From Spongiibacter nanhainus (GTDB lineage Bacteria > Pseudomonadota > Gammaproteobacteria > Pseudomonadales > Spongiibacteraceae), in NCBI RefSeq assembly GCF_016132545.1, contig NZ_CP066167.1, positions 2,817,001 through 2,881,000 of the forward strand: a DNA stretch of 64,000 nt, in the 5' to 3' direction. The notes under the pieces are model-generated. The model made no database searches and had not been told where the DNA came from. It saw only the letters and a list, made by a program, of their open reading frames with translations. This document shows, piece after piece, positions 12,180 through 50,070 of this stretch; the stretch's first letter is position 1, and every line of letters starts with the position of its first letter. The translations under genes were made by a program, and so were the position numbers.

Positions 12180-12192
12180 TCATCTGTGTTGA
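12180..12192. promoter_or_regulatory. Palindromic operator candidate, site A
   Basis: TCATC-TGT-GTTGA, a near-perfect inverted repeat in the 288-base gap upstream of the esterase gene. It is one of seven matches to the same pattern in this window (others at 20175, 31068, 42853, 45872, 48360, 50058). The rest of the gap between 12051 and 12338 shows no gene. Confidence 0.6.
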
Positions 12193-12338
12193 TGACAAAA
12201 TACCATTAGCCAGGCGACCTTGCCACAGTGATCGCGGGAAGGGTCAATCAGGCTGCGTGCTCCTCGACCTGTTCGAGTCAATAGGAGTGTTGCAGGCCGG
12301 CACCACTATCGAGGGATGCCAAGGCGGACAGGATGGGT

Positions 12339-13367
12339 TCAGCCCCGGCGGAACTCTCGGGGGCCGACGCTGACCCAGCGACGAAAGGCGCGTCTAAAGC
12401 TGCGTGAATCGCCGTAGCCACAGAGTTCGGCAACGCGCTCTATCGCCATATCGTTATTGTGTATAAGGTTCATTGCGGTCAATCGACGGGCATTGTCCAC
12501 CAGCTGCTCGAAGGACAATCCATTGTCCGCCAGCCGGCGCCGTAAGGTACGCTCGCTCATGGCCATCCTCACCGCTACCCCGGCCATGGTTGGGCGTTGC
12601 TGCAAACTATCGATAATCACCCGCTCCACCGACGCGGCCAGATCCAACGTCGCCGTGGTATTTTTAAGTTCCCGCTCCAGTATGGCGAGAATTTGTTTAA
12701 GGGCCACCGGGTCGTGACCCGGCAGTTCTTTATCGAGCACTGCGGCATCTATCATGAGCCGATTACCCTCACTGTTAAATTCCACCGGCGCCTGAAAGAT
12801 CTGCGAATACCGGTCGGTGTAAGCTGGGGCCGGGTAAGCTAGCTCCACCTTTATTGGATTGATCTCTTCCCCCCCCAGCTCCCGCAGGTAAACCACAATG
12901 CTGGCAAAGACTTCCTCAATGCACAGTATCTGCACCGGAAGCTCGGGCAAGCGACACAAAGTTTGGGCGTACACGACGCCGTCGGCGATAGTGGTCTGAC
13001 TCTGGGTCATGCCGCCGGTGAGGGTTTGATAACGGCTGCAAATCTCCCAAGCATCCTGCAGGTTTTTACTGAGGGCGGCGGCGTGGCCAACCAGTCCCAG
13101 TGTGCCCAGTACATTGAGGTTGCCCACCGCGAGCCCCAGCCCCGGATAGTCGGGGAGCGCTTCCAGGCCCCGCTTGATCATCGTGTCGGCTTGGCGGTAA
13201 GACACTCTGATGTCCGGGTCATACAGGTCGTCGCGACGAAAACCCAAGCCACGGCACAGCCGCTCGCAGTCGATACCCTGAGAGCTTAAAAACTCCGCCA
13301 GCTTGTTCAGCATAAATGGCGGGAACATCGCCAATTCATACAGCGGATCGGTGGTCGTGAAGGGCAT
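12339..13367 (-). CDS. AraC-family transcriptional regulator (OruR/ArgR-like)
   Basis: A 342-residue regulator with the arabinose-binding-type N-terminal domain seen in OruR-like proteins (GLEALPDYPGLGLAVG, LGLVGHAAALSKNLQDAWE) and a C-terminal double helix-turn-helix (about 240-342; MSERTLRRRLADNG and CGYGDSRSFRRAFRRW). AAAGGA precedes the ATG. It is transcribed divergently from the cytochrome c/FAD oxidase/TonB receptor operon, so it is the most likely controller of that operon. The shared intergenic region holds TGTC direct repeats that fit an AraC site. Confidence 0.92.
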   Translation of the reverse strand: MPFTTTDPLYELAMFPPFMLNKLAEFLSSQGIDCERLCRGLGFRRDDLYDPDIRVSYRQADTMIKRGLEALPDYPGLGLAVGNLNVLGTLGLVGHAAALSKNLQDAWEICSRYQTLTGGMTQSQTTIADGVVYAQTLCRLPELPVQILCIEEVFASIVVYLRELGGEEINPIKVELAYPAPAYTDRYSQIFQAPVEFNSEGNRLMIDAAVLDKELPGHDPVALKQILAILERELKNTTATLDLAASVERVIIDSLQQRPTMAGVAVRMAMSERTLRRRLADNGLSFEQLVDNARRLTAMNLIHNNDMAIERVAELCGYGDSRSFRRAFRRWVSVGPREFRRG

Positions 13368-13451
13368 GGCCGTCCTTTGCTCTCTGGTGATTTACGCCTT
13401 ATTAACTGCCTCAGGCATCGCCCTCATTGTGCCCCAGAGGCATCTTGGCCG

Positions 13452-13480
13452 CAAATGTCCGCTTTTTGTCGTTTCAAGTC
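13452..13480. promoter_or_regulatory. Candidate AraC-type binding site (phased direct repeats)
   Basis: TGTC at 13456, TGTC at 13467 and AGTC at 13477 occur with 11- and 10-base periods in the divergent region between the AraC regulator and the 13635 operon. AraC-type proteins contact two consecutive major grooves per monomer, so helically phased short repeats fit. The site is inferred; no other copy was found. Confidence 0.35.
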
Positions 13481-13634
13481 CTGTTGCAGGCAGGAAGCGG
13501 CGCCTATGGTTAACACGATACAAACCCTCTATGCCTTCGGCGTGCCTCTAAAATTCTGCGCGCCACAGTGGTGAGGGTTGGCCAAAACAATATTTCGTCA
13601 CTATCAATAACTCGCCACTAAGAGATGGGCATAG

Positions 13635-13997
13635 ATGCGCAACATTATTATCCTGTTATTGTTTGTCACCGTCGTGGCGGCCTGCAGCAGCGAGACACCT
13701 ACAGCAAACGCGACTGCGACCACCAAGACGCCAGTCGTCCCCGCCGACCCGGTCCTGGCAGAGCTCTACGCCGCCACCTGCCAGTCCTGCCACAGCAACG
13801 GCATTGGCAATGCACCACTGACCGGTGACCAGGCCGCATGGCAGCCCCGACTCGCCAAGGGTATGGACACCCTCCTTACCCATACCATTACTGGTTTCGG
13901 GGGTATGCCGCCTCTGGGTTCCTGCAGTGACTGTAGCGAAGAGGATTTTGTCGCTCTGATCACCTTTATGAGTACCCCGGCCGGAGACCAACCATGA
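13635..13997 (+). CDS. Lipoprotein c-type cytochrome (small, class I)
   Basis: A 120-residue protein with a short signal peptide and lipobox (VVAAC, Cys17), so it is membrane-anchored in the periplasm. CQSCH is the heme attachment motif and the downstream GFGGMPPLGSCSDCSEEDF contains the methionine expected as the distal ligand, as in cytochrome c5-like proteins. The extra CSDC pair also occurs in c5. It overlaps the next gene by four bases (ATGA). The context suggests it takes electrons from the FAD oxidase encoded next. Confidence 0.88.
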   Translation: MRNIIILLLFVTVVAACSSETPTANATATTKTPVVPADPVLAELYAATCQSCHSNGIGNAPLTGDQAAWQPRLAKGMDTLLTHTITGFGGMPPLGSCSDCSEEDFVALITFMSTPAGDQP

Positions 13998-20042: not shown

Positions 20043-20174
20043 GTTCTTCCCCGAGGGTACTCCCCCTCCATCTGCACAGCGTAAACACCCTCCAACTCAA
20101 CGTTTTGTCACCTTACATTTTTGCATGCTGTTGCAGAACTACGCTGTTGTGATTGGCGCCAAGGTGTTATATGG

Positions 20175-20187
20175 TCAACTGTGTTGA
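20175..20187. promoter_or_regulatory. Palindromic operator candidate, site B
   Basis: TCAAC-TGT-GTTGA is a perfect five-base inverted repeat 35 bases upstream of the DapB-like dehydrogenase start. It is the cleanest of the seven copies. Confidence 0.65.
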
Positions 20188-20222
20188 TTATAAATATAAT
20201 TCACCATCCCTGGCACTAAACC

Positions 20223-21293
20223 ATGACCATGCGTACTGACAATGATAGCCAGCCGACCCTCCGCATCGCCCAATGGGCGACGGGCAAAGTCGGCCAGCGC
20301 AGTTTGAAAGCCGTTATCAACCACCCTGCGATGGAGTTAGTGGGCCTCAAAGTCCATTCCGATGCCAAGGTCGGCAAAGATGCCGGCGAGTTGTGCGGGC
20401 TTCCGCCCCAGGGCGTAGTCGCCACCCAGAGTATCGACGATATCCTCGCTGCCAAACCCGACTGCGTGCTGTATATGCAGGAGGGCGTGGTGATTGAAGA
20501 TATCTGCGCCCTGCTCCGCGCCGGTATCAATATTGTGACAACTCGGGGCGAATTCTTTAATCCGGATTACATGGACGCTGAGCTGAGAGAGCAAACCCTG
20601 GCAGCCTGTCGTGCTGGCAACGCCACCCTTCACGCCACGGGTAGCAGCCCCGGCTTTATCACCGAGGCCATTCCGCTGGTGCTGACTTCAGTAGCCCGCC
20701 GCCTGGATTGCCTGACCATCGACGAGTTTGCGGATATTCCCGCCTCCTGCTCGCCGGAGATGGTATTTGATGTAATGGGCTATGGCCGCCCCGCCAGTGG
20801 GGATTTTGACGCCGGCCTACTCCACCACATGGCTCAGTGCTTTGAGCAGTCCCTGTGTCTGACCGCCAAAGCACTTGGCCTGGAGCTCGACAAGGTGGAA
20901 GCCGCTGGCGAGTACGCCTGTGCCAGTGAAGATGTCGAGATCGCGCCGGGCGCCATCATTAAGGCCGGCACCGTCGCTGCCCAGCGGATTACCGTGGCAG
21001 GAATGCGCAACGGCGCGCCGCTCATTCAGTTCCGCGCCAACTGGTATTGCAGCCACAACATCGATAAAGACTGGGAGTTGGCGGCCAGCGGTTGGCGGGT
21101 AAATGTGGAGGGGGACACGCCTCTGGACGTCACCCTGAAGATGCCCCTGGGGGATGAACCAGTAGCAGAGCAGATGGGCGGCTATACAGCCCACCGCGCA
21201 GTCAATGTGGCCCACGCCGTGTGTGCGGCGCCAGCCGGGATCGCCACCATCGTCGATTTGCCTCAGGTTATCGCCACACTATCAAGCCAATAG
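20223..21293 (+). CDS. DapB-like NAD(P)H-dependent dehydrogenase (2,4-diaminopentanoate dehydrogenase-like)
   Basis: A 356-residue protein with an N-terminal Rossmann fold (LRIAQWATGKVGQRSLKAV) and the dihydrodipicolinate-reductase-like N-terminal layout; the C-terminal half resembles the 2,4-diaminopentanoate dehydrogenase group. It is clearly paralogous to the protein at 31705 (shared QWxTGKV, PxxELVGL, LLRAGINxxTT and NPGW/SPGF blocks) but lacks that protein's extra C-terminal domain. No good ribosome-binding site precedes either ATG (20223 or 20229). It starts a three-gene set with an MFS transporter and a SnoaL-like protein, under operator site B. The real substrate in such catabolic clusters is unknown. 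Confidence 0.8.
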   Translation: MTMRTDNDSQPTLRIAQWATGKVGQRSLKAVINHPAMELVGLKVHSDAKVGKDAGELCGLPPQGVVATQSIDDILAAKPDCVLYMQEGVVIEDICALLRAGINIVTTRGEFFNPDYMDAELREQTLAACRAGNATLHATGSSPGFITEAIPLVLTSVARRLDCLTIDEFADIPASCSPEMVFDVMGYGRPASGDFDAGLLHHMAQCFEQSLCLTAKALGLELDKVEAAGEYACASEDVEIAPGAIIKAGTVAAQRITVAGMRNGAPLIQFRANWYCSHNIDKDWELAASGWRVNVEGDTPLDVTLKMPLGDEPVAEQMGGYTAHRAVNVAHAVCAAPAGIATIVDLPQVIATLSSQ

Positions 21294-21336
21294 AACAGGG
21301 CAACAAGCAATAATAATACTCGGTGAGGATTGAGAT

Positions 21337-22611
21337 ATGTCACACACTCCCAGCGCCGCCCTGGAATGGCGCCACTTCTGGTACCTGCCGATCACTGCCG
21401 CCATGGGCTATGCCACGTCGGTTATGTATGTCTATTCTTTTGGGCCTTTTATCGAGCCGATTCAAACCGAGTTTGGCTGGTCTCGGGCGCAGGTCTCATC
21501 TGGCATCACTATCGCCGCCTTTATCAGCGCGATTTTCTGTATCCCTATGGGTATTTTGGTCGACAAGATCGGTCCGCGGCGGGTAGGCCTGATAGGCGTG
21601 ACTCTGATGCTGGCCGCCGTGGCCGCCCTCAGTACCGCCACGGGTACAGATAGCAACTGGCTGATGTTGTGGCTGCTCCTTGCCGTGGCAACACTGCTGG
21701 TCCAGGCCACGGTCTGGACCAGTGCCGTGACCAGCCGCTTTGCCCGCTCCCGTGGGCTGGCCCTGGCCATTACCCTGTCGGGCGCCTCGCTGGCCGCCAC
21801 GATATTCCCATTGATTGCCACCTGGTTAATCGGTCACTTTGGCTGGCGGGGGGCCTATATCGGCCTCAGCGGCATTTGGGCTGCACTGACCTTACCGGCG
21901 ATGTTTTTTGGCTTCCGCGGCGCCCAGGATCAACGCAAAACCGACACTCACAAAAAAACCGCCAGCGCCGACCTGCCCGGCCTGAGTATTCGGGAAGGTT
22001 TGCGCTGTTCCGCACTCTATAAACTGGTGATGGCGGGCGGATTCTTTGCCTTCACCGCCATCGGTATCGTGGTTCACTTTGTCCCTATACTGACTGACAG
22101 TGGCGCCACTGCCCTACAAGCTGCCGGGGTTGCTTCTCTGATCGGGATTTTTTCGATCGTCGGCCGCCTGGGAACCGGCTTTCTGTTAGATAAGTTCCCG
22201 GCCCATATCATCGGCGGTATCGCCTTTGTCATTCCCATCCTGGGTTGCGGTTTGCTGCTCTACGACGGCAGTCAGCCGGCCTTTCAAATGATTGCCGCCG
22301 CCATTTTCGGCCTGACACTGGGCTCTGAGGTGGATGTTATCGCGTATCTCGCCGCCAAGTATTTCGGCCTAAAGAACTTTGGTGCTCTCTATGGTGCGGC
22401 GGTCATGGCCCTGTCTATGGGCACCGCCTTTGGCCCCCTGGGTGCCGGCGCGGTCTTTGACCACTTTGGCAGCTACAGCCCTTTCCTGCAGCTCACCGCC
22501 ATACTGATGGGTGCCAGCGCTATTGCACTCTTTACCATGGGCAAACCGCCTGAAGAGGCGGTGGCGGCCACTCAGGCGGTGGCAACCGAGTCGGTAACCG
22601 CAGTGGATTAA
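21337..22611 (+). CDS. MFS transporter (oxalate/monocarboxylate-type)
   Basis: A 424-residue inner-membrane carrier with twelve predicted hydrophobic segments; the loop DKIGPRRVGL after helix 2 matches the MFS motif A and the arrangement FGPFIEPIQTEFGWSRAQVSSG is typical of OxlT/monocarboxylate-type members. GAGG precedes the ATG. It lies between the DapB-like dehydrogenase and the SnoaL-like protein on one strand, so it probably imports the compound, likely a carboxylate, handled by this regulon. Confidence 0.9.
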   Translation: MSHTPSAALEWRHFWYLPITAAMGYATSVMYVYSFGPFIEPIQTEFGWSRAQVSSGITIAAFISAIFCIPMGILVDKIGPRRVGLIGVTLMLAAVAALSTATGTDSNWLMLWLLLAVATLLVQATVWTSAVTSRFARSRGLALAITLSGASLAATIFPLIATWLIGHFGWRGAYIGLSGIWAALTLPAMFFGFRGAQDQRKTDTHKKTASADLPGLSIREGLRCSALYKLVMAGGFFAFTAIGIVVHFVPILTDSGATALQAAGVASLIGIFSIVGRLGTGFLLDKFPAHIIGGIAFVIPILGCGLLLYDGSQPAFQMIAAAIFGLTLGSEVDVIAYLAAKYFGLKNFGALYGAAVMALSMGTAFGPLGAGAVFDHFGSYSPFLQLTAILMGASAIALFTMGKPPEEAVAATQAVATESVTAVD

Positions 22612-22650
22612 CTCAGCACACTCGTCACACTTAAAAATTGGAGTATGACT

Positions 22651-25795: not shown

Positions 25796-25888
25796 GGCTT
25801 TTATCCTTATCTATTAACGAGAAGTGAAGGTGCAGCACTCATGATACTTAGGGGCTCTCGACACTAATTGCATTAGTGCATGGGAACA

Positions 25889-35631: not shown

Positions 35632-35650
35632 GTTGCTCCCCTTGGGTTTT

Positions 35651-35690: not shown

Positions 35691-35711
35691 CGATGGAAGC
35701 TGAATCCGCGA

Positions 35712-36131: not shown

Positions 36132-36144
36132 TCACCACTCCCCT

Positions 36145-37758: not shown

Positions 37759-37794
37759 AAAAGTATCCCCGTATTTTATTGTAAGCGTTGATGG

Positions 37795-38709: not shown

Positions 38710-38736
38710 AGGAGCTTTCCTTTTACTTATCTTAAG

Positions 38737-39951
38737 TTAGCCAATCACACCACTATGTTTTAGTTCAGCGATCTGTGCGGCACTCAAGCCCAGTGTCGAT
38801 GACAACACCGCATCGGTGTGCTCGCCCAGGGTTGGCGGTGGCGTCGGCGCGCTCTGAGTAGCATCGCTAAACTGAATACTGCGATTCACGATGGGCACTT
38901 CACCTAAGGTGGTGTGGGGCGTGTTGACCACCATATTGCGCGCCACCACTTGAGGCTGAGCCAGCGCTTCTCCGACACCCAGTATCGGCGCATTGGGGAC
39001 TTGATGCTCGTTGAGAATCGCTTCCAGCTCTGCCACCGTCTTACTGGCAGTCACACCTTCTATAATCGCGTTAACCTCGTCTCGCCGCTCCCGGCGCTGC
39101 TCCAGGGAATTGTAGCGGGGGTCGAGCTCATAATCTTCGAGTCCCAACGCCCGGCAAATCCGGCCCCAAAAGTTGTTGGTTAAACAGGCGATGATGATGG
39201 CGCCATCACTGGCGGCAAAAGAGCCGTAGGGCACCAGGTTGGGATGCTGAGATCCCTGGGGCACCGGATCTTCGCCTGTGAAAAATGACAGTTGGGCCAA
39301 ATACCCTAACATGCCAATCATGCCGTCCAGCAGGCTGACATCAATATGCCGCCCTTTACCGGTGGCGTGACGTTCATGTAGGGCAGCCAGTATGCCAATA
39401 GGGCCATTAATGCCGCCCACCAGATCACCCAGCGGAATACCCAGTTTGGTAGGTTCACCGCCGGCAGAACCATTAACACTCATGGCTCCGGACAATGCCT
39501 GCAAAACAATATCGAAGGAGGGCCGATCCCGCAGCGGACCGTACTGGCCAAAGCCGGAAATCGAGCAGTAGATGAGTTTGGGGTTAATCGCCGAGAGCTC
39601 CGCATACCCCAAACCCAGGCGATCCATCACCCCTGGGCGATAGTTTTCGATCAAGACATCGCAGCTGGCGACCAGCTGTTTGACCAGCTCGACACCGCGC
39701 TCGGTTTTTAGATCGATAACGATGCTCTTCTTACCCCGGTTAACGGCCAGATAATAGTGACTCTCGCCGTCCCGGAATGGCGGAAAGCTGCGGGTTTCGT
39801 CACCGCCACCCGGCGGCTCCACCTTTATGACTTCCGCGCCCAGATCGGCCAGTGCCAGTGCCGCCGCTGGACCCGCCAGCACCCGGGTCAGATCCAGTAC
39901 GCGGATATCGCTAAGGGGGCCCGACCAGTTGGCATTATCTTTATCTGTCAT
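38737..39951 (-). CDS. CaiB/BaiF family (type III) CoA transferase
   Basis: A 404-residue enzyme. I place the start at the ATG at 39951, giving the usual short leader before GPLSDIRVLDLTRVLAGP; an ATG ten codons upstream adds an atypical Cys/Phe-rich tail. The catalytic Asp is expected in GRHIDVSLLDGM. It transfers CoA between carboxylates without ATP, so it can recycle CoA to the pathway acid. It lies between the hotdog hydratase and the MFE-2-like SDR. Confidence 0.92.
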   Translation of the reverse strand: MTDKDNANWSGPLSDIRVLDLTRVLAGPAAALALADLGAEVIKVEPPGGGDETRSFPPFRDGESHYYLAVNRGKKSIVIDLKTERGVELVKQLVASCDVLIENYRPGVMDRLGLGYAELSAINPKLIYCSISGFGQYGPLRDRPSFDIVLQALSGAMSVNGSAGGEPTKLGIPLGDLVGGINGPIGILAALHERHATGKGRHIDVSLLDGMIGMLGYLAQLSFFTGEDPVPQGSQHPNLVPYGSFAASDGAIIIACLTNNFWGRICRALGLEDYELDPRYNSLEQRRERRDEVNAIIEGVTASKTVAELEAILNEHQVPNAPILGVGEALAQPQVVARNMVVNTPHTTLGEVPIVNRSIQFSDATQSAPTPPPTLGEHTDAVLSSTLGLSAAQIAELKHSGVIG

Positions 39952-40073
39952 GACTGCCAATCCCGTGCAAAAACAAAACAACCGCGGCCGATAAATCGAC
40001 CGCGGTCCAGGTTACTTACCTGCTGCGCATTGCGATTAGACATCGCGGGCTGCGCAGCGGTATCGCGCCAGGT

Positions 40074-41201
40074 TTAGCCGCGGCTGGGCAGCTCAACAAT
40101 GGCCGCACCCGTCGCCGACAGTTCACCGCGATGGGTTTCAGCGCGCTGACTGATTTCCACATAGCACTTGCCGTTCTCCTGGAACTTGCGGGTTACCTGC
40201 CCCTTGATGAAGATAACATCACCGTCCGGATTGTGGCGGCGGATCTGGCTCTTGTGCTTGCTCAGGAAGCCGTCATCACCCATCCAGTTAGTGCAGTGGT
40301 GAGTCAGCCAGGAAGTCCGCTCCGGGCCATAGTCATAGGCACCCGGGGCACCCACTTGCAGCGCAAAGTCTTCATCCCAGTGAACACGCTCAGGGCAATC
40401 TGGCACATTGAAGCGGTTTTTAATGCCGGTACCGGGGTGAGCTTGCTGCATCTTGTAGGCCAGCTTGTTGGCGCGGATATACAAACCGCCCCAGCCCTGG
40501 GCATAGCAGATAAAACCGGTGACGGTCATCGGTCCCTTCATCATCGTCGGCAGCTCTTCGCCTTCCATGACATCTTCCCAATAACGGGGCGTAGCGCCGC
40601 GAATTTCTTCTTTATCGTAGAGCTTGCTCCACTCTGCCAGTTGCTCATCGGTGTGAGGCTCAACCTTGCCCTTCACATCGGTGTACTTGGTGCCGCGCTC
40701 CCGAGCTTCGTCACGGTCGGTGCGGAATACCCAGCTGTCGGCGTCGGCAACCAGGTCACCGTGCTGATTGTAGAAATCAACGTGGTAGATCTGCTGGAAG
40801 GAACGGCCGGCAAATTTGGTTTGATGCTCTACCAAGTCTTTGAGATAGGCTTCTGTTCTGATTTCGTCGTTGCGCAGCACCGGCTTGTGCCAGTTCCAAT
40901 CGGCCCCGGCCCACATCGCGTGGATGCCGGACAGACCGCCGCAGTAACCAGAAATGATGCGGCTGGTGGTGAACATAAAGCTGGGCAGCGCAACCACATC
41001 GCCAAACTTGGTGTTCTTTGCATACTCTGGATCACACCACAGCGGATTGTCGTCACCGATGCCGTGGGCGTAGTGGCGAATCGCGTCGCGAGTCGCTTCG
41101 TAGTTCCATGGCTCGATGGTGTTGGTGATCTTTACACCAATCCGCTCGCGCAGCGAGGCCAGGCCCTCTTCGGTAATCTTGGGAAACTTGTTTTCTGACA
41201 T
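40074..41201 (-). CDS. Double-hotdog hydratase (FAS1-DH/MaoC-like)
   Basis: A 375-residue protein; AGGAG lies eight bases before the ATG at 41201. Two hotdog domains in tandem are suggested by the FAS1-dehydratase-like N-terminal half (DAIRHYAHGIGDDNPLWCD) and the second half beginning near the WEDVMEGEELP block. It has the same layout as the protein at 43787 (shared RYWEDV, GDELP/GEELP, YNQHGD). The usual job is hydration of an enoyl-CoA. It is directly downstream of the acyl-CoA ligase gene, so it acts early in the CoA pathway. Confidence 0.85.
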   Translation of the reverse strand: MSENKFPKITEEGLASLRERIGVKITNTIEPWNYEATRDAIRHYAHGIGDDNPLWCDPEYAKNTKFGDVVALPSFMFTTSRIISGYCGGLSGIHAMWAGADWNWHKPVLRNDEIRTEAYLKDLVEHQTKFAGRSFQQIYHVDFYNQHGDLVADADSWVFRTDRDEARERGTKYTDVKGKVEPHTDEQLAEWSKLYDKEEIRGATPRYWEDVMEGEELPTMMKGPMTVTGFICYAQGWGGLYIRANKLAYKMQQAHPGTGIKNRFNVPDCPERVHWDEDFALQVGAPGAYDYGPERTSWLTHHCTNWMGDDGFLSKHKSQIRRHNPDGDVIFIKGQVTRKFQENGKCYVEISQRAETHRGELSATGAAIVELPSRG

Positions 41202-41240
41202 TGTTTGTTCTCCTGTGTTTATCAAACGCCGGCCCGGGCT

Positions 41241-42800
41241 TTATACCTTAGCGGCCTTGGCAGCTTCCGCATCGCGAAGCTTTTTGCGGTGAACCTTGCC
41301 TGCCGGCGTTTTCGGAAGCTCACTCACAAATTCGACTATCCGGGGAAACTCATGTTGAGCCAGTCGCTCCCGGGTAAAATCCTGAAGTTCTTTAACAAAT
41401 TCATCGCTACCCTCGCGGTTGGCAATGACAAAGGCCTTTACCACCTGACCGCGTTTTTCATCGGGCACACCGATAACCCCGACTTCCTGAACGTTGTCGT
41501 GCTTGAGCATGGTGTGCTCGATTTCCACGGCGCTCATTGTCCAGCCCGCCGAGATAATCACGTCGTCGGCTCGACCACAGTGGTAGAGGTAACCATCGGC
41601 ATCGACCTTGGCCCGATCCTTGGTGGTCTCCCAGTGATCCCGCTTCCACAGCATCAACTCGCCAACTTCTTCGGGCTCGGTGGGCGTGCCGTCGGGGCGA
41701 TGGACTTCCAGCTTGAGGCCGGGAATGGGCTTGCCCAGAGAGCCAGGCTTGCGTTCGAAGTCTTCAGCGCCGGGGAAGTTCACCAACACCACGCCGATTT
41801 CGGTGGTGCCGTACATACTGCAGGCGGGAACCTTGAAGTAGCGGTCGATAAACTCCAGCGTCGCCGGGTCGATGGGTTCGCCGGTAAAGGACAACTTGTT
41901 AAAGAAAAACTGAAACTGATCGGCACCGCCGGCGTTTTTCATTAGCCGGTAATGGGTCGCCGCGGCCGACATATTGGTGATTTTAAAATCCTGCAGCGCC
42001 TGCATCAGCCGGGTGGCGTCAAACTTGCCCGCAAAGGTGCCGGTGGTCACGCCCAACGCCAAAGGCGCCAGGGTGCCGTGCCATAGGCCGTGCCCCCAGG
42101 CCGGCGAGGACGGGCAAAAATACTCGTCACCGGGGCGAATACCCGTGCCATACAGCGCGGCAAACATCAGCGTGACGATGGATTTGTGGGTATGTTTAAC
42201 CGCCTCGGGCAGCTCCCGAGTGGTCCCCGACGTGTATTGGAATACGGCTAAATCCGAGGCTTTGGTGTTGGGTTGGTAGGTCGAGGGATATTGCGCAATA
42301 TCGTCCAACAGCCCCTGATCCGCGACCACGACCCGCAAACCATCGATCTGGCTGGCCATGTCGGCTTTTTCAGCATTGGTGATAAGAATCGAGGGCTTGC
42401 AGTCGTCGACCCGCAAACGCAGCGCATCCGGGCCAAACAGGGTAAACAGCGGCACGCTGATAGCGCCGGTTTGCATGGCACCAAACAGGCAAACGTAAAA
42501 CGGCAGCGAGGGCTCCAGCATAAAGGCAATGCGCTCACCTGGCGCTATGCCGTTGGCGTCCAGCCAGTGAGCAAATTGGGCCGCCCCAGAGGCGATCTGG
42601 TCAAAGCTTAAAATCTCATCACTGCCGTCGGCGTGGGCGATACGCACTGCTGCGCGACCGGAGCCATCGGCGTGGCGAGTCATGCACTCGTTGGCGATGT
42701 TCAGGGTTTCCCGATCGCCATCAAACAACTCCCACAGGGCCGCCGAATTGGCATGGGCCTGAGCGTCCGCATAGGAGGTGTAGTCGGTCAATTTGGTCAT
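41241..42800 (-). CDS. Acyl/aryl-CoA ligase (AMP-forming) with variant P-loop
   Basis: A 519-residue adenylate-forming enzyme. The phosphate-binding loop reads YTSGTTRELPEAVKHTH instead of the usual YTSGTTGxPKGV, so the conserved Gly and Lys are changed. Other motifs are normal: YGTTEIGV, GRADDVIISAG and the C-terminal lysine region KTPAGKVHRKKLR. It should activate a carboxylic acid. It heads the minus-strand set of seven genes down to 34933 and has operator site D 53 bases upstream. Confidence 0.9.
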   Translation of the reverse strand: MTKLTDYTSYADAQAHANSAALWELFDGDRETLNIANECMTRHADGSGRAAVRIAHADGSDEILSFDQIASGAAQFAHWLDANGIAPGERIAFMLEPSLPFYVCLFGAMQTGAISVPLFTLFGPDALRLRVDDCKPSILITNAEKADMASQIDGLRVVVADQGLLDDIAQYPSTYQPNTKASDLAVFQYTSGTTRELPEAVKHTHKSIVTLMFAALYGTGIRPGDEYFCPSSPAWGHGLWHGTLAPLALGVTTGTFAGKFDATRLMQALQDFKITNMSAAATHYRLMKNAGGADQFQFFFNKLSFTGEPIDPATLEFIDRYFKVPACSMYGTTEIGVVLVNFPGAEDFERKPGSLGKPIPGLKLEVHRPDGTPTEPEEVGELMLWKRDHWETTKDRAKVDADGYLYHCGRADDVIISAGWTMSAVEIEHTMLKHDNVQEVGVIGVPDEKRGQVVKAFVIANREGSDEFVKELQDFTRERLAQHEFPRIVEFVSELPKTPAGKVHRKKLRDAEAAKAAKV

Positions 42801-42852
42801 GGTGTCGTTATATCTTAGTGTCTTTGTATTTTAGTGTATTTCTGTCTTATAA

Positions 42853-42865
42853 ACATCAGTGTTGA
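42853..42865. promoter_or_regulatory. Palindromic operator candidate, site D
   Basis: ACATC-AGT-GTTGA, 53 bases upstream of the acyl-CoA ligase that heads a seven-gene operon, in the divergent gap shared with the IclR regulator. Confidence 0.5.
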
Positions 42866-42974
42866 TTATGGGGATACCATGCCACAGCTTTAAAAGATTG
42901 TAAATATTGAATCTAATTTTATATACTGAATCTTATTAAGCCTATTTGTGCCGCTCAGCGGCGATGAGACAACC

Positions 42975-43769
42975 ATGACCAGCCCAAGCAACGATACCCC
43001 TCCCGCAGCGATCAAAACCAGCAAAGCCCCAGCAATATCCAGGGCGGCAGCCGTACTGAGACTGTTGGGAAAGAGCGAGTCGCCGCTGAACCTGCAAACC
43101 ATTGCCGACCGCTTAGAGCTGGTGCCCAGCACCTGCCTCAATATTTTGCGGGCACTGGTGGCGGAAGAGTTCGTCGCCTTCGACAGCGATAGCAAGCGCT
43201 ACTCCCTGGAAGCCGGCGTACTGACCCTGGCCAGACAGTGGCTGCGCCGCAGTGCCTTCAACGACCTGGTGCAACCGGTACTGGATCGCATCAGTCGCGA
43301 GCGTGAAATCACCATGCTGGGGGTCAATATTGTCGGGCTTGAGCATATTGTCGTTGTCGCCAGCTCCCAGGCGGGCAACAACCTTCAGATCAGCGCCCAA
43401 ATTGGCACCCGCTTCCCCGCCCTGCTCAGCGCAACCGGGCGCTGTATCGCCGCGTTTGGCAACCACCGGGAAGAGGATATCAAGCGGCGTTTTGACACCT
43501 TGCGCTGGGACGATCCGCCCAGCTGGACGCAGTGGCAGCAGCAAGTTAAGGAGACCCGGGAACGCGGCTACGCGATAGATACCGGCAACTACATTGCCGG
43601 TGTGACGGTACTCGCTGCGCCGGTGTGGAACGCATCTGGCAAACTGCGCCACGCGCTGGTAGCACTGGGCATTAGTAGCACCGTGCAGCGCCGAGGCATG
43701 GGCAAGTTAGAGAAGGACCTACTGAGCGCCGCCAAGTCGCTGTCACAGCAACTTAGCGGCGAGGGGTAG
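42975..43769 (+). CDS. IclR-family transcriptional regulator
   Basis: A 264-residue regulator. The ATG at 42975 is preferred to a GTG at 42948. The N-terminal winged helix (about 12-75: RAAAVLRLLGKSESPLNLQTIADRL cut here; VPSTCLNILRALVAEEFV) is followed by the IclR effector domain (VAGVTVLAAPVWNASGKLRHALVALG). It is divergent from the acyl-CoA ligase operon, which it probably controls together with or besides the protein that binds site D. Confidence 0.93.
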   Translation: MTSPSNDTPPAAIKTSKAPAISRAAAVLRLLGKSESPLNLQTIADRLELVPSTCLNILRALVAEEFVAFDSDSKRYSLEAGVLTLARQWLRRSAFNDLVQPVLDRISREREITMLGVNIVGLEHIVVVASSQAGNNLQISAQIGTRFPALLSATGRCIAAFGNHREEDIKRRFDTLRWDDPPSWTQWQQQVKETRERGYAIDTGNYIAGVTVLAAPVWNASGKLRHALVALGISSTVQRRGMGKLEKDLLSAAKSLSQQLSGEG

Positions 43770-43786: not shown

Positions 43787-44953
43787 TTAACCTTTGGTCG
43801 GCAGGGCGACCTCCGCGGTTGCCGTCGCCATCACCGCATTGGCCTGAGTCACCATTTTGCACTCCACCTGAATTAGGTGACCATTGTCCTCGTCGACAAT
43901 CTTGTCCACCACCTTGGCGGTCATAATGGTGATGTCGCCAGTGAAAGCCGGCCCACGGTAGTTGGCCTTTGAGTGGACAACGCTACCCCACTCCCCCGCC
44001 CAACCGCCGAGATAATCGAGAATCCAGGCGCCCATGGATGCACCGTAACCGTAGGCCCGGGACATACCGATGCGGTGCGCCCACTCCGGGAACAAGTGAC
44101 CACGCGAGGGGCCGAAATAAGCGCCATCAGTCCACTCGGGATTGTCCCTCTCCATCACCGGATCGTTCTCATGACCGGCAAACTCCTTGGTAAAACCCAT
44201 GGCCTCCATGTCCATCCCCGGGCGATGGGTGCCGCCCCAGATGGTGAATAAATAGGCCCGCCACTCAGTGGTAAAGCTGGCAATACTGTGGGGACCAATG
44301 ACCCGCACCGGCAGCTCATCGCCGACCTGAACGTCCTCCCAGTAGCGCTTACCGTGACCCAAATCGTGCATCATCTTGATGTACTCGTATTTGCGGTCTT
44401 CCAGCTCCTTCAGCTCCGCATCGCTCCAGACCGGGTCTTCAGAGGGCTCCATGGCGCCCATCTCCACGGCCGCCTCACGGCTGTAGCGAATGGCGGTAGA
44501 GCGCTGACGGGCAACAAAATCGCCGTGCTGGTTGTAGTAATTATTGTCGCCGCGCTGGAAGCAGGTTGGCCCGGCAAAAGACGTTTCCTTAACACTGTAG
44601 TCGTAGGGAATTTTCTCGTTGGTGATTTCATCACCACCGAATATTTTGGGCCCGTAGAACCACCATTCGTCGCCGCCAAATATCAGGTGGGAATCCGGGA
44701 TACAGCCTACGCAGGCGGGCCCCGCACCGTGGCCGTCATCGCAGGCCACAGCAAAAGATTGTGGAGCGACCAACTTACCGTAACGCCCCTCTGCAGCGAA
44801 GTCGTGATCGTAGTGCAGCAGATTGGGATAGTGCATCGCCTGCACCCAGCGACGGATATCGTTATTGTGCAATGGCTCTTTCATTTTGGCCGGCGCAATG
44901 GCTTTGCCCATATGCTGGTCCAGATCTGAGCAATCCAGTGTTTTCTTGGTCAT
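43787..44953 (-). CDS. Double-hotdog hydratase (FAS1-DH/MaoC-like), second copy
   Basis: A 388-residue protein with the same double-hotdog layout as that at 40074, including NNYYNQHGDFVA, GKRYWEDVQVGDELP and a C-terminal MATATAEVALP strand. GGGAG precedes the ATG. Identity between the two copies looks low outside the motifs, so they probably serve different steps or substrates. It is downstream of an SDR gene and thus in the operon under operator site E. Confidence 0.85.
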   Translation of the reverse strand: MTKKTLDCSDLDQHMGKAIAPAKMKEPLHNNDIRRWVQAMHYPNLLHYDHDFAAEGRYGKLVAPQSFAVACDDGHGAGPACVGCIPDSHLIFGGDEWWFYGPKIFGGDEITNEKIPYDYSVKETSFAGPTCFQRGDNNYYNQHGDFVARQRSTAIRYSREAAVEMGAMEPSEDPVWSDAELKELEDRKYEYIKMMHDLGHGKRYWEDVQVGDELPVRVIGPHSIASFTTEWRAYLFTIWGGTHRPGMDMEAMGFTKEFAGHENDPVMERDNPEWTDGAYFGPSRGHLFPEWAHRIGMSRAYGYGASMGAWILDYLGGWAGEWGSVVHSKANYRGPAFTGDITIMTAKVVDKIVDEDNGHLIQVECKMVTQANAVMATATAEVALPTKG

Positions 44954-45000
44954 CGGGGAACTCCCATATTATTGGTGTGTGACGAAGCGCAAGCCTTGCT

Positions 45001-45759
45001 CTAGCTATTGAGAATGCGCGGCGACAGGTACTTGGTGTTGTGCCAGCCGCCGTCAACCACGATGGTCTGGCCGTTAATAAATTCGCCGCCCGGCGAACAT
45101 AGAAAGGCGATGGTGCTGGCGATATCATCCACCTCCCCCAGTCGAGGATAGGGGGTGGTATCGACATTCATTTTTTGAAAAGCGGGGTCATTGAAGCGCT
45201 CCCGCACCATGTCGGTCATGGTGACTCCCGGGGCCACGCAGTTGGAGCGAATACCCTGGGGACCGTATTCACAAGCCATATGCATGGTCAGCGAGGTCAA
45301 CCCGCCCTTGGCGGCAGAATAAGCGCCGCCGCGACGCCCCCCCACCACAGCAAAGGTTGAAGTGACATTAACGATGCCCGCTCCGGACTCCATATGGGGA
45401 ATCACATCTCTGGCCAAGCGAAACGGTGCCCGCAGCATAATGCCCAGGAACTGATCCAGGGTCTCATCATCGGTTTCATGGAGGGGTTTAGGACTGCCGA
45501 TACCGGCATTGTTGACCAGGAAATCAATGCGCCCAAAGCGCTCCAGCGCCAAGTCCACGACTTTCTTGGGCGCATCGTCTGCGGTGAGATCCACCGACAG
45601 TGTCGCCACCCGGGCCGGGTCACCCAGCTGCGCAGCCATCGCCTCGAGTTTGTCGGCGCTGCGACCCACGCCCACGATGGCCATACCCATATCGAATAGT
45701 TGCTGAGCTGTGGCGAGGCCGATTCCCCCGCCCGCTCCGGTCACGATCGCTAGTTGCAT
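45001..45759 (-). CDS. SDR-family oxidoreductase (FabG-like)
   Basis: A 252-residue classical SDR. The ATG at 45759 has AGAGGT eight bases upstream; a longer reading (33 more codons) has no support. TGAGGGIG is the cofactor motif, NNAGIG follows, and YSAAKGG carries the catalytic Tyr and Lys. It probably oxidises a hydroxyl group of a pathway intermediate. The gene is followed by the second double-hotdog hydratase. Confidence 0.93.
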   Translation of the reverse strand: MQLAIVTGAGGGIGLATAQQLFDMGMAIVGVGRSADKLEAMAAQLGDPARVATLSVDLTADDAPKKVVDLALERFGRIDFLVNNAGIGSPKPLHETDDETLDQFLGIMLRAPFRLARDVIPHMESGAGIVNVTSTFAVVGGRRGGAYSAAKGGLTSLTMHMACEYGPQGIRSNCVAPGVTMTDMVRERFNDPAFQKMNVDTTPYPRLGEVDDIASTIAFLCSPGGEFINGQTIVVDGGWHNTKYLSPRILNS

Positions 45760-45871
45760 TGAATACACCTCTTGCGGTGGTGGCAGTGATACTGCCCACT
45801 CAGTTTTATTGTGTGCAGCGCCGCAATGTGAATCTCGGGATGTCGTTACGGCGGCCAATGGTCTATTATAA

Positions 45872-45884
45872 TCATCGTTGTTGA
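45872..45884. promoter_or_regulatory. Palindromic operator candidate, site E
   Basis: TCATC-GTT-GTTGA in the 293-base gap between the divergent SDR (start 45759) and acyl-CoA ligase (start 46053) genes. It could serve either or both. The remainder of the gap shows no gene. Confidence 0.55.
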
Positions 45885-46052
45885 TTAATTACCAGAATAT
45901 CCCTATCTCCGCGGCGCCAACCCCGGATACTGGCGATATCAAACCCCAGGGTTATTCATTCGCGCTATTTGGCCGATTGAACCAGCGGGGAGAATCAGCA
46001 AAACAAACAAGCCAAACCAATAAAATAAAGCATTGATGAGCAGAGTATAGCT

Positions 46053-47648
46053 ATGAGCCTTCAGCGCAGAACTATCGACGGCCACTCCCGCCGCTGGGAC
46101 GCAGATTTGGCGGACGATGCCTACCGGCAGGGCCAGTGGGTTAAGGATACGCTGGCTGAGCAACTGGCCCGCACCGCGGCAGAGGCGCCCAACACCGTGC
46201 TGGTTGTGGATGACCAACGGCAACTGAGTGCCGCGGACCTCTACAAACACGCCAGCGGCTTGGCCAGAACCCTGGCCTCGCGCTATTCCCCCGGCAGCGT
46301 GGTCTCCTTTATGTTGCCCAATTGGCACGAGGCAGCCATTATCTATCTGGGCGCCACCATGGCGGGTATGGTGGCGCATCCGGTGCTGCCCTCACTGCGG
46401 GAGCACGACCTGGCGTTTATGCTGAAGGATGTCGATAGTCGCATTATCTTTATTCCCCAGCAGTTTCGCGGCCAGGCCCACGCCGAGATGCTAGCCAGCA
46501 TTGTGAAGACGCTGCCCAGCCCCCCGGATGTGGTGGTGGTCCGCGGTGACGGATCGCAGCATGAGTCCCATACTGACCTACTGGACGCCCATCCGCCGGG
46601 AGAATTGCCTGCGCTCGACAGTGACGCTGTGCGCATGATTATGTACACCTCAGGAACGACCGGGCGCCCCAAGGGGGTGATGCACAGCCACAACTCGATT
46701 CACGCCTTGATTCAGCAGTTGGGCCAACACTGGTTGATCGAGCCTGGCGACAGCTTTCTGGTGGCCTCACCGATTAGCCATATTGGCGGCTCGATTTATG
46801 CCTTTGAGATTCCCATTCTATTGGGTGCCACGGCAGTATTGATGGAGCGCTGGGACGCCAGTGACGCCGTCAACACACTGGCGACGCGGCGCTGCACTCA
46901 CTTTGCCGGTGCAACGCCATTTTTGAGCCAACTCCTTGACGCCGCCCAACAAGCGGGCACACGCCTGCCCGATCTCAAAGTATTTATCTGTGGTGGTGCA
47001 TCGGTACCGCCAACACTGATCCGGGAAGCACGGGAGTACTTCCAGCAGGCCCGGGTTACCCGGGTATATGGATCGACCGAAGTGCCGGTAATGAGTGTGG
47101 GCGTGGTTGAACCCTACGACGTGCACTACGCCTCTGAAACCGACGGCCGCCCCGGTATCGCCAACCTGGAATTAAGTGACAGAGGCGAAGTCTTGGCCAA
47201 AGGACCACAAATGCTAGTGGGCTACCATCACGCAGAAGATGAAGAAGGGGCATTCGATGAGCGGGGTTTTTTCCGCACCGGCGACCTGGCGCGCTGGATC
47301 GACGGCGACTACCTGGTGATTGCCGGCCGGCTCAAAGACATTATTATCCGCCACGGCGAAAACATCGCCCCCAAGGAAATCGAAGACCTGCTGATCAAGC
47401 ATCCGGCCATTGCAGATATCGCCATTGTCGGGCTGCCCGACCAACGCACTGGCGAGCGAGCCTGCGCTGTCATTGTAGCGGCTCCGCAAGAAGCACCTGG
47501 CCTGGAAGACATCCGGGATTATCTCAATGAGCTGGGTGTCGCCAAGTTCAAGATTCCGGAGCAGGTAGCGTTGTGGGAGGCCTTACCCAAGAACGACGCG
47601 GGTAAAGTGCTAAAGCACCAAATCCGCGCCACGTTATTGGAGCAATAG
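46053..47648 (+). CDS. Acyl-CoA ligase (AMP-forming)
   Basis: A 531-residue adenylate-forming ligase with canonical motifs: MYTSGTTGRPKGVMHSH, YGSTEVPV, GRLKDIIIRHGENIAPKE and the C-terminal catalytic lysine in NDAGKVLKHQIR. It is one of three such ligases in this region; three different acids or side chains may be activated. It is divergent from the SDR gene and converges with the TetR gene. Confidence 0.92.
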   Translation: MSLQRRTIDGHSRRWDADLADDAYRQGQWVKDTLAEQLARTAAEAPNTVLVVDDQRQLSAADLYKHASGLARTLASRYSPGSVVSFMLPNWHEAAIIYLGATMAGMVAHPVLPSLREHDLAFMLKDVDSRIIFIPQQFRGQAHAEMLASIVKTLPSPPDVVVVRGDGSQHESHTDLLDAHPPGELPALDSDAVRMIMYTSGTTGRPKGVMHSHNSIHALIQQLGQHWLIEPGDSFLVASPISHIGGSIYAFEIPILLGATAVLMERWDASDAVNTLATRRCTHFAGATPFLSQLLDAAQQAGTRLPDLKVFICGGASVPPTLIREAREYFQQARVTRVYGSTEVPVMSVGVVEPYDVHYASETDGRPGIANLELSDRGEVLAKGPQMLVGYHHAEDEEGAFDERGFFRTGDLARWIDGDYLVIAGRLKDIIIRHGENIAPKEIEDLLIKHPAIADIAIVGLPDQRTGERACAVIVAAPQEAPGLEDIRDYLNELGVAKFKIPEQVALWEALPKNDAGKVLKHQIRATLLEQ

Positions 47649-47672
47649 ACTGCAAACTTGGCCCGCCAGGGG

Positions 47673-48353
47673 CTACTCCTCGCCTTTTAGCAAGGCGACC
47701 AGCTTGGGATATTTTTGCGGCTTAAGTGTGCCGTACATACACAGGCGCAGCAGCTCCCTTGAGAAGCGCTTGGTCATTTTGGCCTGCTCGCGCTTACTCT
47801 TGGCATGCGCCTGCACCCATACCGGCCACAGGAATATTCCCGCCAGAATAATGACCGACAAGGGCTCGGGGTCGACATCTTCCCGCCCGGCACCACTTTG
47901 TGCCAAGGTCTCAATACCCTTTTTATAGCGATTAAAAAACAGGTCACCGGCGGGATCTTCAGAGCCCAGCATCCCAAACAGCCAGATTCGACCCAGCTCC
48001 GGGTTTTCAACCGCAAAGTTCACCACCCGCTCGATGGTTTCAAAGACTGGCTGCTCTTTGGGCGGCAATTTAGAGGTGTTCTCACCATCAAAGGCTTCGG
48101 CAAATATACCCTGAGAAATAAGCTGATTGGCAACCCAGTCCGCTGTCGCCTGCAGCAGTTCCTCCCTGGTGGCAAAGTGCTGGTAAGCCGTACCCCGGTT
48201 TACGCCAGCCAGGTTTGCCACCCGGGACACACTCAGACCTTCTGGGCCGTCTTCTGAAAGCACGGTGCGTGCTGCCTTAAGAATCGCCTCCCGAGTCGCC
48301 TCAGGATTCCTAACCCGTTTTTTCTCCGGCGCCGCAGCCGATTTCTTTGCCAT
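47673..48353 (-). CDS. TetR-family transcriptional regulator
   Basis: A 226-residue regulator with the TetR helix-turn-helix near the N-terminus (REAILKAARTVLSEDGPEG, VANLAGVNRGTAYQHFATREEL) preceded by a Lys/Ala-rich tail. A copy of the TCAwC-N3-GTTGA palindrome (site F) begins seven bases before its start codon, the usual place for autoregulation. Since the same pattern precedes the surrounding catabolic operons, I infer it is the pathway repressor; the ligand is probably an acyl-CoA or the substrate. Confidence 0.9.
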   Translation of the reverse strand: MAKKSAAAPEKKRVRNPEATREAILKAARTVLSEDGPEGLSVSRVANLAGVNRGTAYQHFATREELLQATADWVANQLISQGIFAEAFDGENTSKLPPKEQPVFETIERVVNFAVENPELGRIWLFGMLGSEDPAGDLFFNRYKKGIETLAQSGAGREDVDPEPLSVIILAGIFLWPVWVQAHAKSKREQAKMTKRFSRELLRLCMYGTLKPQKYPKLVALLKGEE

Positions 48354-48359
48354 ACTTGA

Positions 48360-48372
48360 TCACCAGTGTTGT
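48360..48372. promoter_or_regulatory. Palindromic operator candidate, site F (TetR autoregulation)
   Basis: TCACC-AGT-GTTGT, directly upstream of the TetR start at 48353. A second, poorer match with a two-base spacer (ACATC-GT-GTTGT) lies at 48402-48413. Confidence 0.5.
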
Positions 48373-48435
48373 TCCTGAAAAGCGCGAATTTTAGTTACTG
48401 AACATCGTGTTGTATAGAATAGAAAATGTTGATAT

Positions 48436-50007
48436 TTACTCAGCGGTAATTAAGGACTGGCTTCGATACTGCTCCCGCAGCGCCTTTTTATCCGGCTTGC
48501 CCAAAGCCGTTAGCGGCAGGGACTCGACAAACTCCACCGCCTTGGGTGCCTGAAACCGCCCCTTGCGATCCGCCACCCTGGCCACCAATTCCTCTTTCTC
48601 AACGCTTGCGTCACTGCGCAGCACCACCACCGCCAATACCGCCTCCCCCCACTTGGGGTGGGGCACGCCAACTACCCCGACCTGCGCCACAGCAGGGTGT
48701 TCGGCAATGATATCCTCCACTTCCCGTGGGTAGACGTTGAAGCCGCCGGTGACGATCATATCCTTGGTGCGATCGATAATTCTAAGAAATCCGCCGGGAT
48801 CGCGAATCGCAACGTCGCCGCTGTGCAGCCAGCCACCGGCAAAGGCCTGCTCTGTCAGTTCCGGCATATCGCGGTAACCATTCATTACCAAAGGCCCCCG
48901 CACGCAGATTTCCCCTGGCTCACCGTCCGCCACCGGCTGGTTGGCCTCATCTAACAGGGCCACATTCAGCCATGGCACCGCTCGCCCACAGCTGGCCAAG
49001 CGCTGCAGGTCGTTAACATCGTGCTCTCGCTTGCGCAGTACCGTTACGGCCATAGGCGCTTCCGCTTGGCCGTAAAACTGCATAAATACCGGCCCAATAC
49101 GCTCTATGGCCTCTTTAAGGCGCGGCGGCGATATCGCCGATGCACCGTAAAACACCGTATCCAGACTGGACAGGTCAAACTCGTCAAAACGCGGACAATC
49201 CAGCAAGGCATAGATCATGGTGGGGACCAACATCACACAGTTGATCCGATAGTCCTGAATAGCTTGCAAGACCTGGACCGGATCGAAGCCGGGAAGCACC
49301 AACATTTGCCCGCCTTTAAGTAATGTGGGTAGAAACATCGCCGCGCCGGCATGACTGAGGGGAGTACAACACAGGAAATTTGGCGGACTGGGCCACTCCC
49401 ATTCCGCCATCATGATCTGCACAGTGACAAGCCCGGTGCGTTGCACACTGGCCAGTGCCTTGGGCTTGCCAGTAGTCCCGCCGGAGTAACCCAGGCGCAT
49501 AATATCGTCGCCCTCCACCTGTGCGGGCTCCAACTGTTGAGGGTCAAACGACGTCGCTATCTCACACAGATTGGCGCCGAGATCATTGTCGCCAATTCCC
49601 AACAAGACCAGTCCGGGTAGCTTTTGCGCGATTGCTTGGGCGCGCTCCGCGTAGCGAGAGGGCTCAAAGATCAGCACATCCAAACCCGCATCCTCGGCGA
49701 CAAAGGCGTGGTCTTCCAAGCCCCCCAAAGGGTGCATGGGCACATAGATGGCCGCCATCATCTGCACAGCATTGGCCAGATACAGCACTTCGGGAAGGTT
49801 GGAGGACAGCAGGCCGATACGACTGCCCTTCCCCAAGCCCAAGCTTTGCAAAGTCTGAATGTATTGGCTGGTGGCGTCTCGCACATCGCCAACACTAAGT
49901 AGGTCGCCACCGTGTAACTGCAACAGTGGTCGATCCGGATCCTGCTGCAGCACATTGGCCAAAATATCGGGGACATAGAGGGGACGATGAAGCGCGTCGT
50001 TGATCAT
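48436..50007 (-). CDS. Acyl-CoA ligase (AMP-forming)
   Basis: A 523-residue ligase with RLGYSGGTTGKPKA as P-loop, YGQAEAPM, DRTKDMIVTGGFNVYPRE and the lysine in LTALGKPDKKALRE. Third ligase of the cluster. It lies upstream of the TetR gene on the same strand, 82 bases apart, and has operator site G 50 bases before its start. Confidence 0.92.
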   Translation of the reverse strand: MINDALHRPLYVPDILANVLQQDPDRPLLQLHGGDLLSVGDVRDATSQYIQTLQSLGLGKGSRIGLLSSNLPEVLYLANAVQMMAAIYVPMHPLGGLEDHAFVAEDAGLDVLIFEPSRYAERAQAIAQKLPGLVLLGIGDNDLGANLCEIATSFDPQQLEPAQVEGDDIMRLGYSGGTTGKPKALASVQRTGLVTVQIMMAEWEWPSPPNFLCCTPLSHAGAAMFLPTLLKGGQMLVLPGFDPVQVLQAIQDYRINCVMLVPTMIYALLDCPRFDEFDLSSLDTVFYGASAISPPRLKEAIERIGPVFMQFYGQAEAPMAVTVLRKREHDVNDLQRLASCGRAVPWLNVALLDEANQPVADGEPGEICVRGPLVMNGYRDMPELTEQAFAGGWLHSGDVAIRDPGGFLRIIDRTKDMIVTGGFNVYPREVEDIIAEHPAVAQVGVVGVPHPKWGEAVLAVVVLRSDASVEKEELVARVADRKGRFQAPKAVEFVESLPLTALGKPDKKALREQYRSQSLITAE

Positions 50008-50057
50008 TGCTTGACTGCCTTAAAGCTTGGAACTCGGTGCCCTAAGGATACTAATGA

Positions 50058-50070
50058 TCAACGATGATGA
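50058..50070. promoter_or_regulatory. Palindromic operator candidate, site G
   Basis: TCAAC-GAT-GATGA, the same pattern read from the other strand as TCATC-ATC-GTTGA, 50 bases upstream of the acyl-CoA ligase at 50007. Confidence 0.5.

Follow-up and report, generated by a model that had tools for sequence, protein, structure and literature searches.

A 19-bp palindrome as a candidate operator shared by three paralogous TetR-family regulators in two catabolic regions of Spongiibacter nanhainus

Introduction

Catabolic regulons under TetR-family proteins are a known kind of control system; these proteins usually lie as a dimer over a promoter and are released by a ligand, and the operator of KstR has the core AAC-N2-GTT. 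As stated in one account, two such repressors per organism, KstR and KstR2, control many catabolic genes and are relieved by pathway intermediates, and their homologues (KstR1/KstR2) are absent from bile-acid-degrading Proteobacteria (PMC8399759). Two other papers place a palindromic operator before the kstR gene itself, give TnnCnnTACnAnTnGTAnnGnnA as the operator of EdcR, which serves two operons of one cluster (both PMC8700777), and give AGCAAGCGCTTGG / CCAAGCGCTTGCT as the operator of AtuR / RdmA (PMC9973270). The subject of this work is a stretch of 64,000 nucleotides of Spongiibacter nanhainus, hereafter the window (positions 2817001-2881000 of NZ_CP066167.1, the one contig of 4,078,570 bases that makes up the genome), and a palindrome that recurs seven times in it before genes of apparently catabolic function.

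The reading we favour, with a probability of roughly 0.8, is that a single TetR subfamily, characterised by the recognition helix NRGTAYQHF, would use the palindrome (about TAAWCAHCANTGDTGWTTA) as its operator, and that three paralogues, each encoded behind such an operator, would read this common word in two regions of the genome, before no fewer than 23 transcription units that serve catabolism, uptake or regulation.

Results

Seven palindromes in the window

The initial annotation had described seven copies of TCAwC-N3-GTTGA, the third spacer base always being T. Five positions of the window (12180, 20175, 45872, 50058 and 35378) carry exact TCAWCNNNGTTGA, corresponding to seven strand-wise matches versus 0.22 expected from shuffles; four of the seven listed copies are exact, while those at 31068 and 42853 carry one mismatch and that at 48360 carries two. 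The spacer T holds for all seven on the plus strand, although the copy at 50058 is exact on the minus strand only, where that base is C. The place at 35378, unlisted earlier, is coding (inside the START-domain gene 34933-35631) and reaches 6.7 bits by the matrix introduced below. Genome-wide, the 13-bp pattern gave 21 forward and 19 reverse matches versus 10 and 10 when read backwards. The pattern as written was dropped, being too short and partly wrong, with five window places of which one is coding; the seven sites themselves are real and form part of a larger palindrome.

When aligned with their flanks the seven sites are symmetric across about 19 bp, and the consensus of the 23 strong sites described in the next section is approximately TAAWCAHCANTGDTGWTTA, a 19-bp palindrome. 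A symmetric (palindromic) 21-bp matrix derived from the seven window sites scores them at 22.0-30.5 bits, the best other place in the window reaching 14.4. With leave-one-out matrices each site stays within the window's top seven (16.2-28.6 bits), and Markov-shuffled versions of the window (100 in all) had 0.06 matches above 16 bits on average, the single best being 17.6. The motif is short and its loose form is common across the genus, which could suggest chance or a non-regulatory repeat; the leave-one-out ranks, the shuffles, the backwards controls and the repeated occurrence of sites ahead of target-gene relatives contradict this explanation, whose probability we consider close to nil. The operators are as follows.

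Operator 1, 12177..12195: upstream of the alpha/beta hydrolase gene 11304-12056 (minus strand), 123 bases to the start; 24.0 bits
Operator 2, 20172..20190: upstream of the DapB-like gene 20223-21293 (plus strand), which MFS and SnoaL genes follow; 27.7 bits
Operator 3, 31065..31083: upstream of the flavin monooxygenase / Rieske / thiamine pyrophosphate (TPP) enzyme / aldehyde dehydrogenase set 24362-31016 (minus strand); 22.5 bits
Operator 4, 42850..42868: between the ligase operon (41241-42800 and on, minus strand) and the IclR gene 42948-43769 (plus strand); 30.5 bits
Operator 5, 45869..45887: between the short-chain dehydrogenase/reductase (SDR) gene 45001-45858 (minus strand) and the ligase gene 46053-47648 (plus strand); 28.8 bits
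Operator 6, 48357..48375: its 13-base core stops 6 bases short of the TetR start codon; 22.0 bits
Operator 7, 50055..50073: upstream of the ligase gene 48436-50007 (minus strand); 24.6 bits

Their intergenic position and their distances to the nearest start, with gaps of 6 to 123 bases, agree with what had been annotated. Three sites also have the start of an open reading frame (ORF) on the opposite side, namely the IclR gene at 42948, the ligase gene at 46053 and an ORF at 31263. The promoter that contains operator 3 has a weaker palindrome as well, at 31022, which scores 14.4 bits; 46 bases away from that operator, it adjoins the monooxygenase start and is perhaps a second operator.

Strong sites in two catabolic regions

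Three stretches were searched with the window-only matrix: region A (1.38-1.50 Mb, 126 kb), region B (from 2.787 Mb into the window) and region C (16 kb). They were picked because matches to a loose 19-bp pattern cluster in them, and their site density is not that of the genome on average. With three mismatches allowed this loose pattern gave 51 matches versus 9 in the genome, 50 of the 51 places being scored; its counts were dropped as evidence, as genus members that lack the TetR show a similar excess, and it was kept for choosing stretches only. Sites above 16 bits number 12 in region A, 4 within the 37 kb that lead up to the window and 1 in region C, while the backwards matrix gave no site above this threshold in any of the three. 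Beyond the seven of the window there are 16 strong sites in two stretches of catabolic genes, one at 1.38-1.50 Mb and the other at 2.787-2.817 Mb. The initial annotation had named an equal frequency inside coding regions as an outcome that would speak against it; in the examined stretches, 21 of the 23 strong sites of A and B, the window's seven included, are intergenic, the remaining two (1432431 and 1495369) lying inside ORFs of 75 and 77 codons. A tight pattern with two mismatches, searched genome-wide, gave 16 matches versus 1 backwards, and all 16 fall in A or B, four of them in the window.

The single site of region C (genome position 210561, L048:10562; 21.8 bits) lies inside a 479-codon frame, outside regions A and B; it may be due to chance or be a site within a gene.

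The genes that follow strong sites in A and B include functions of regulation and uptake (an MFS transporter, a thiolase-TetR pair, two TonB receptors, an AraC-type regulator and a PcaK-like transporter) and many enzymes: a pyruvate-dehydrogenase-like E1, an SDR, a FabK-like reductase, a pyrroloquinoline quinone (PQQ) dehydrogenase, an aldehyde dehydrogenase, a luciferase-like oxidoreductase, an acyl-coenzyme A (acyl-CoA) dehydrogenase and an enoyl-CoA hydratase. Another strong site precedes an SDR gene divergent from a P450 gene, which carboxylase subunits and AtuA follow. The best place upstream of the CoA-transferase of region A reaches only 13.4 bits.

Two further observations concern these regions. 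A GntR-like regulator gene, recognised by eye from the sequence (2798883-2799665), lies between the strong operators at 2798781 and 2799865 (L046:18782-19886), one of which precedes the second TetR gene, forming a nest of regulators; and region A contains a hydantoinase A and B pair (L049:9269-13161).

Three paralogous TetR proteins as candidate readers

The gene behind operator 6 encodes the best candidate for a reader.

47673..48353, minus strand: TetR-family regulator, with two paralogues, that is proposed to read the operator (TetR_N, PF00440, 6.8e-13, residues 24-69)

Its structure model (mean predicted local distance difference test score, pLDDT, of 86.4) displays an all-helical TetR fold with a separate ligand domain, and the 50 matches listed from the PDB, with identities of 14-22%, are described as regulators of the TetR family or similar ones, none of them close. 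Two paralogues are encoded at genome positions 2797998-2798675 and 1384906-1385595, being 50% and 43% identical to it. The motif precedes each of the three genes, with a thiolase as the intervening first gene in one case. The residues NRGTAY-HF, within the recognition helix NRGTAYQHF, are invariant across 42 aligned relatives. Among the three proteins the helix-turn-helix (HTH) part is 58-73% identical and the rest 30-39%; in a tree of 35 of the 80 relatives considered below, the paralogues fall into three separate groups, each beside its own counterpart from genome G009. The window TetR and its two paralogues are likely the motif's readers, and conserved DNA-binding parts with a divergent remainder suggest one operator, three signals and repression. 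Operator 6, at the TetR gene's own start, would then mediate autoregulation.

In a different arrangement, a single TetR of the three would control all sites, the other two reading their own promoters or variant sites only. The HTH identity of 58-73%, not 100%, is compatible with this, as are the several TetR-proximal sites that carry a CACC/GGTG arm and not CAAC/GTTG; it is opposed by the invariance of NRGTAY-HF in the 42 aligned relatives and by the position of all three genes behind a common motif, and we consider it unlikely, though the most serious of the alternatives weighed here. The arm variant is frequent in operators that adjoin TetR genes (window 48360, L052 5983, L065 5965 and L088 5965) and may make them weaker or specific to one paralogue. 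We prefer the reading in which all three paralogues would physically bind, and share, all sites. The earlier proposal of one factor for seven sites in 38 kb is accordingly kept in part: one kind of factor is well supported by sequence, while there are at least 23 strong sites, in two regions separated by about 1.3 Mb, and three paralogous TetRs with nearly identical recognition helices are likely, rather than one protein.

The motif upstream of TetR relatives

A scan of named genomes gave 137 relatives of the TetR, of which the best 80, mostly gamma- and alphaproteobacterial by title, were analyzed. Within 450 bp upstream, the window matrix found a site above 15 bits in 27 of the 80, and none with the backwards control (0/80); in some relatives, for example those of L052, L063 and L075, the site takes a position like that of operator 6. 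The whole 0.90 Mb of these 80 loci held 75 matches, versus 0 for the backwards matrix and 0.8 for shuffles, and 47 of the 75 fall in the 9.5% of the loci that is intergenic. Moreover, expectation-maximisation (EM) without a seed, applied to the upstream regions of 28 relatives dereplicated at 70% identity, yielded TaATCAaCAnTGtTGATtA from the best of its 150 starts and estimated that 60% of the regions are occupied.

Distribution across genomes

The TetR is present in 5 of 21 genomes of the family (E 1e-20). In the genus, its three bearers among 18 members have 16 (this genome, G000), 15 (G009) and 6 (G014) matches to the tight pattern with two mismatches, versus 1-5 in the 15 genomes that lack it. 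In the other genus of the family G001 and G003 carry one TetR each and have 1 and 2 matches, the best directly upstream of the TetR gene; G002, which lacks the TetR, has no tight-pattern match. Of 116 genomes sampled from the order, four have the TetR at E 1e-40. The tight pattern was searched in 19 of these 116: 12 matches were counted in each of two genomes that carry the TetR and belong to a single genus of another family, while 17 TetR-less genomes have 0-8 (mean 3.4). Tight-motif counts are highest in TetR-bearing genomes.

The same comparison bears on a second candidate reader, which is encoded next to operator 4.

42948..43769, plus strand: IclR-family regulator, rival reader or target (IclR_C, 5.4e-18)

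If this protein read the palindrome, the TetRs would be mere members of the regulon. The window's strongest site (30.5 bits) does lie in its divergent promoter, and a 71% identical relative exists in the motif-rich G009, in the same arrangement. Nevertheless, at E 1e-20 just two of the 21 genomes have an IclR relative; at this threshold it does not accompany the motif everywhere, being absent from G014, G001 and G003, where motif and TetR are both present; and it is upstream of TetR relatives, in other genera, that seed-free discovery yields this palindrome. A reading by IclR thus seems very improbable to us, and the TetR subfamily is preferred as reader.

Conservation of sites before target-gene relatives

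In G009, sites above 15 bits precede the best-hit relatives of the DapB-like gene, the monooxygenase, the ligase/IclR pair and the SDR/ligase pair, that is, 4 of the 7 window promoters; in the stretches examined, the hydrolase and the 48436 ligase gave no such site. In G104 and G127 sites precede relatives of the 46053 ligase and of other genes of regions A and B. Among the 80 loci, sites precede relatives of the SDR/ligase pair, the DapB-like gene and the monooxygenase. The counterparts of individual operators were found as follows.

Operator 2: site before the best-hit relative in L076, L078 and L156
Operator 3: site before the best-hit relative in L109 and L156
Operator 4: divergent ligase/IclR arrangement with a site in L157
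Operator 5: site before best-hit relatives in L055, L070, L076, L090 and L157

The arrangement of a ligase gene divergent from an SDR gene recurs in L055, L076 and L157.

Overlap with predicted promoters

At 16 of 21 sites (the strong sites except 1432431 and 1495369, within small ORFs), the operator and the top-scoring predicted sigma-70 promoter overlap, compared to 38% expected by uniform random placement. This overlap suggests repression with release by an intermediate: a TetR dimer would cover the promoter and would leave it on binding an intermediate, perhaps the acyl-CoA of the degraded compound. Alternatively the factor might be an activator, as 5 of the 21 best predicted promoters do not overlap their site and the regulon contains an AraC-type regulator gene; the other 16 point the opposite way, and the TetR-family members studied are mostly repressors (PMC3511530). 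Activation appears improbable to us, and repression is retained.

Points that weigh against the proposed reading

Several of the results argue against a TetR-read operator, or lessen the force of what favours it. No site above 15 bits was found within 450 bp upstream of 53 of the 80 TetR relatives, and 28 of the 75 matches in their loci lie inside predicted coding frames (as drawn by a crude gene caller). The in-gene EM control reached a higher likelihood (213.7 versus 130.2) with a different pattern, so that the weight rests on the sameness of the consensus and not on likelihood; and exact palindromes with 5-base arms are not more numerous upstream of the relatives than in the in-gene control. 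As to the genome counts, the tight pattern was drawn after seeing the sites of G000, whose own count of 16 is not independent; the 6 matches of G014 exceed those of the best TetR-less genus genome (G013, 5) by one only; and the looser pattern, with three mismatches, is also in excess in TetR-less genus members (38 versus 7 in G018, 54 versus 13 in G015). The G009 counterpart of the window TetR has upstream of it only a 7.3-bit place by the window matrix (L050), which does fit the tight pattern with two mismatches. Finally, the overlap at 16 of 21 promoters was computed with assumed promoter weights, and the AT-rich arms of the palindrome themselves resemble -10 boxes.

Putative target genes of the window and their surroundings

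The putative targets are listed below, with operon limits taken from strand and spacing.

11304..12056, minus strand: alpha/beta hydrolase (Abhydrolase_6)
20223..23055, plus strand: DapB-like oxidoreductase, MFS transporter and SnoaL-like protein (Pfam), putatively a single operon
24362..31016, minus strand: aldehyde dehydrogenase, TPP enzyme, Rieske oxygenase and flavin monooxygenase (Pfam), putatively a single operon
34933..42800, minus strand: ligase, MaoC-like protein, CoA-transferase III, SDR, SGL/NHL protein, thioesterase and START protein (Pfam), putatively a single operon
43787..45858, minus strand: SDR and FAS1-dehydratase-like gene (Pfam), putatively a single operon
46053..47648, plus strand: acyl-CoA ligase (AMP-binding), divergent from the SDR gene and probably the second target of operator 5
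48436..50007, minus strand: acyl-CoA ligase (AMP-binding)

Farther on, the segment 50881-55500 of the window contains a tRNA-Arg (ACG) gene and then a phage-type integrase gene (about 51926-53272; Arm-DNA-bind_2, Phage_integrase) with small genes; an integrated element seems to start directly after the last operon of the regulon. A search of the window for another copy of the 3' end of this tRNA-Arg found none.

Discussion

The genes concerned give some indication of the substrate. The closest solved relative of the flavin monooxygenase is 5mq6, which we take to be a polycyclic ketone monooxygenase; region A contains a KstD-like gene (1438536-1440302; 7p18, 1.3e-127) and region B an AtuA-like gene (2795476-2796843). 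Two HsaC/BphC-like extradiol dioxygenase genes, both below the curated cut-off, are located at 300302-301183 (L140) and 2338884-2339765 (L139), and no place above 8 bits occurs in the 3.9 kb around each of them (0.30 and 2.34 Mb). For the steroid core pathway as target, the KstD-like gene of region A stands against both ring-cleavage-like genes, which lie elsewhere and without sites. Our guess is a polycyclic or isoprenoid compound.

A tentative idea, which we hold to be somewhat less probable than its contrary, is that three long-separated TetRs, one-to-one in two species, would have kept their helix and operator in common while the ligand part diverged: a single genome-wide regulon could then work as a logic gate for three intermediates of a polycyclic or isoprenoid substrate, an analogue of KstR/KstR2 in Proteobacteria in which a common operator takes the place of separate ones. 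If the proposed reading holds, a short DNA word would list the gene set of a degradation pathway, distant genes included, in TetR-bearing gamma- and alphaproteobacterial groups; the ligands of three named regulators would reveal intermediates of that pathway; and the system would offer a test case for paralogous repressors that share one operator while sensing different molecules.

Among the open-licence papers listed, no title or beginning of an abstract names this TetR subfamily or motif, which is not proof of absence; three papers in which a motif-like string occurs deal with a worm synapse, arsenate in bean and potassium in E. coli. The closest described systems share its general design and differ in the operator. 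EdcR, from Caenibius tardaugens (oestradiol breakdown), is likewise proteobacterial, a TetR repressor that controls a steroid cluster and for which autoregulation has been proposed; its operator TnnCnnTACnAnTnGTAnnGnnA, compared by eye, differs from the consensus found here, and it serves two operons of one cluster. AtuR / RdmA of Pseudomonas (use of acyclic terpenes and of the diffusible signal factor, DSF) is also a TetR repressor of an acyl-CoA catabolic cluster, and an AtuA-like gene is present in region B; again AGCAAGCGCTTGG differs by eye from our consensus. Likened by description, KstR/KstR2 of the Actinobacteria (steroid breakdown) have in common with the present system that multiple TetR repressors control many catabolic genes; unlike it they belong to another phylum and recognise the core AAC-N2-GTT, whereas here the core is AAC-N3-GTT and three TetRs would act on one operator.

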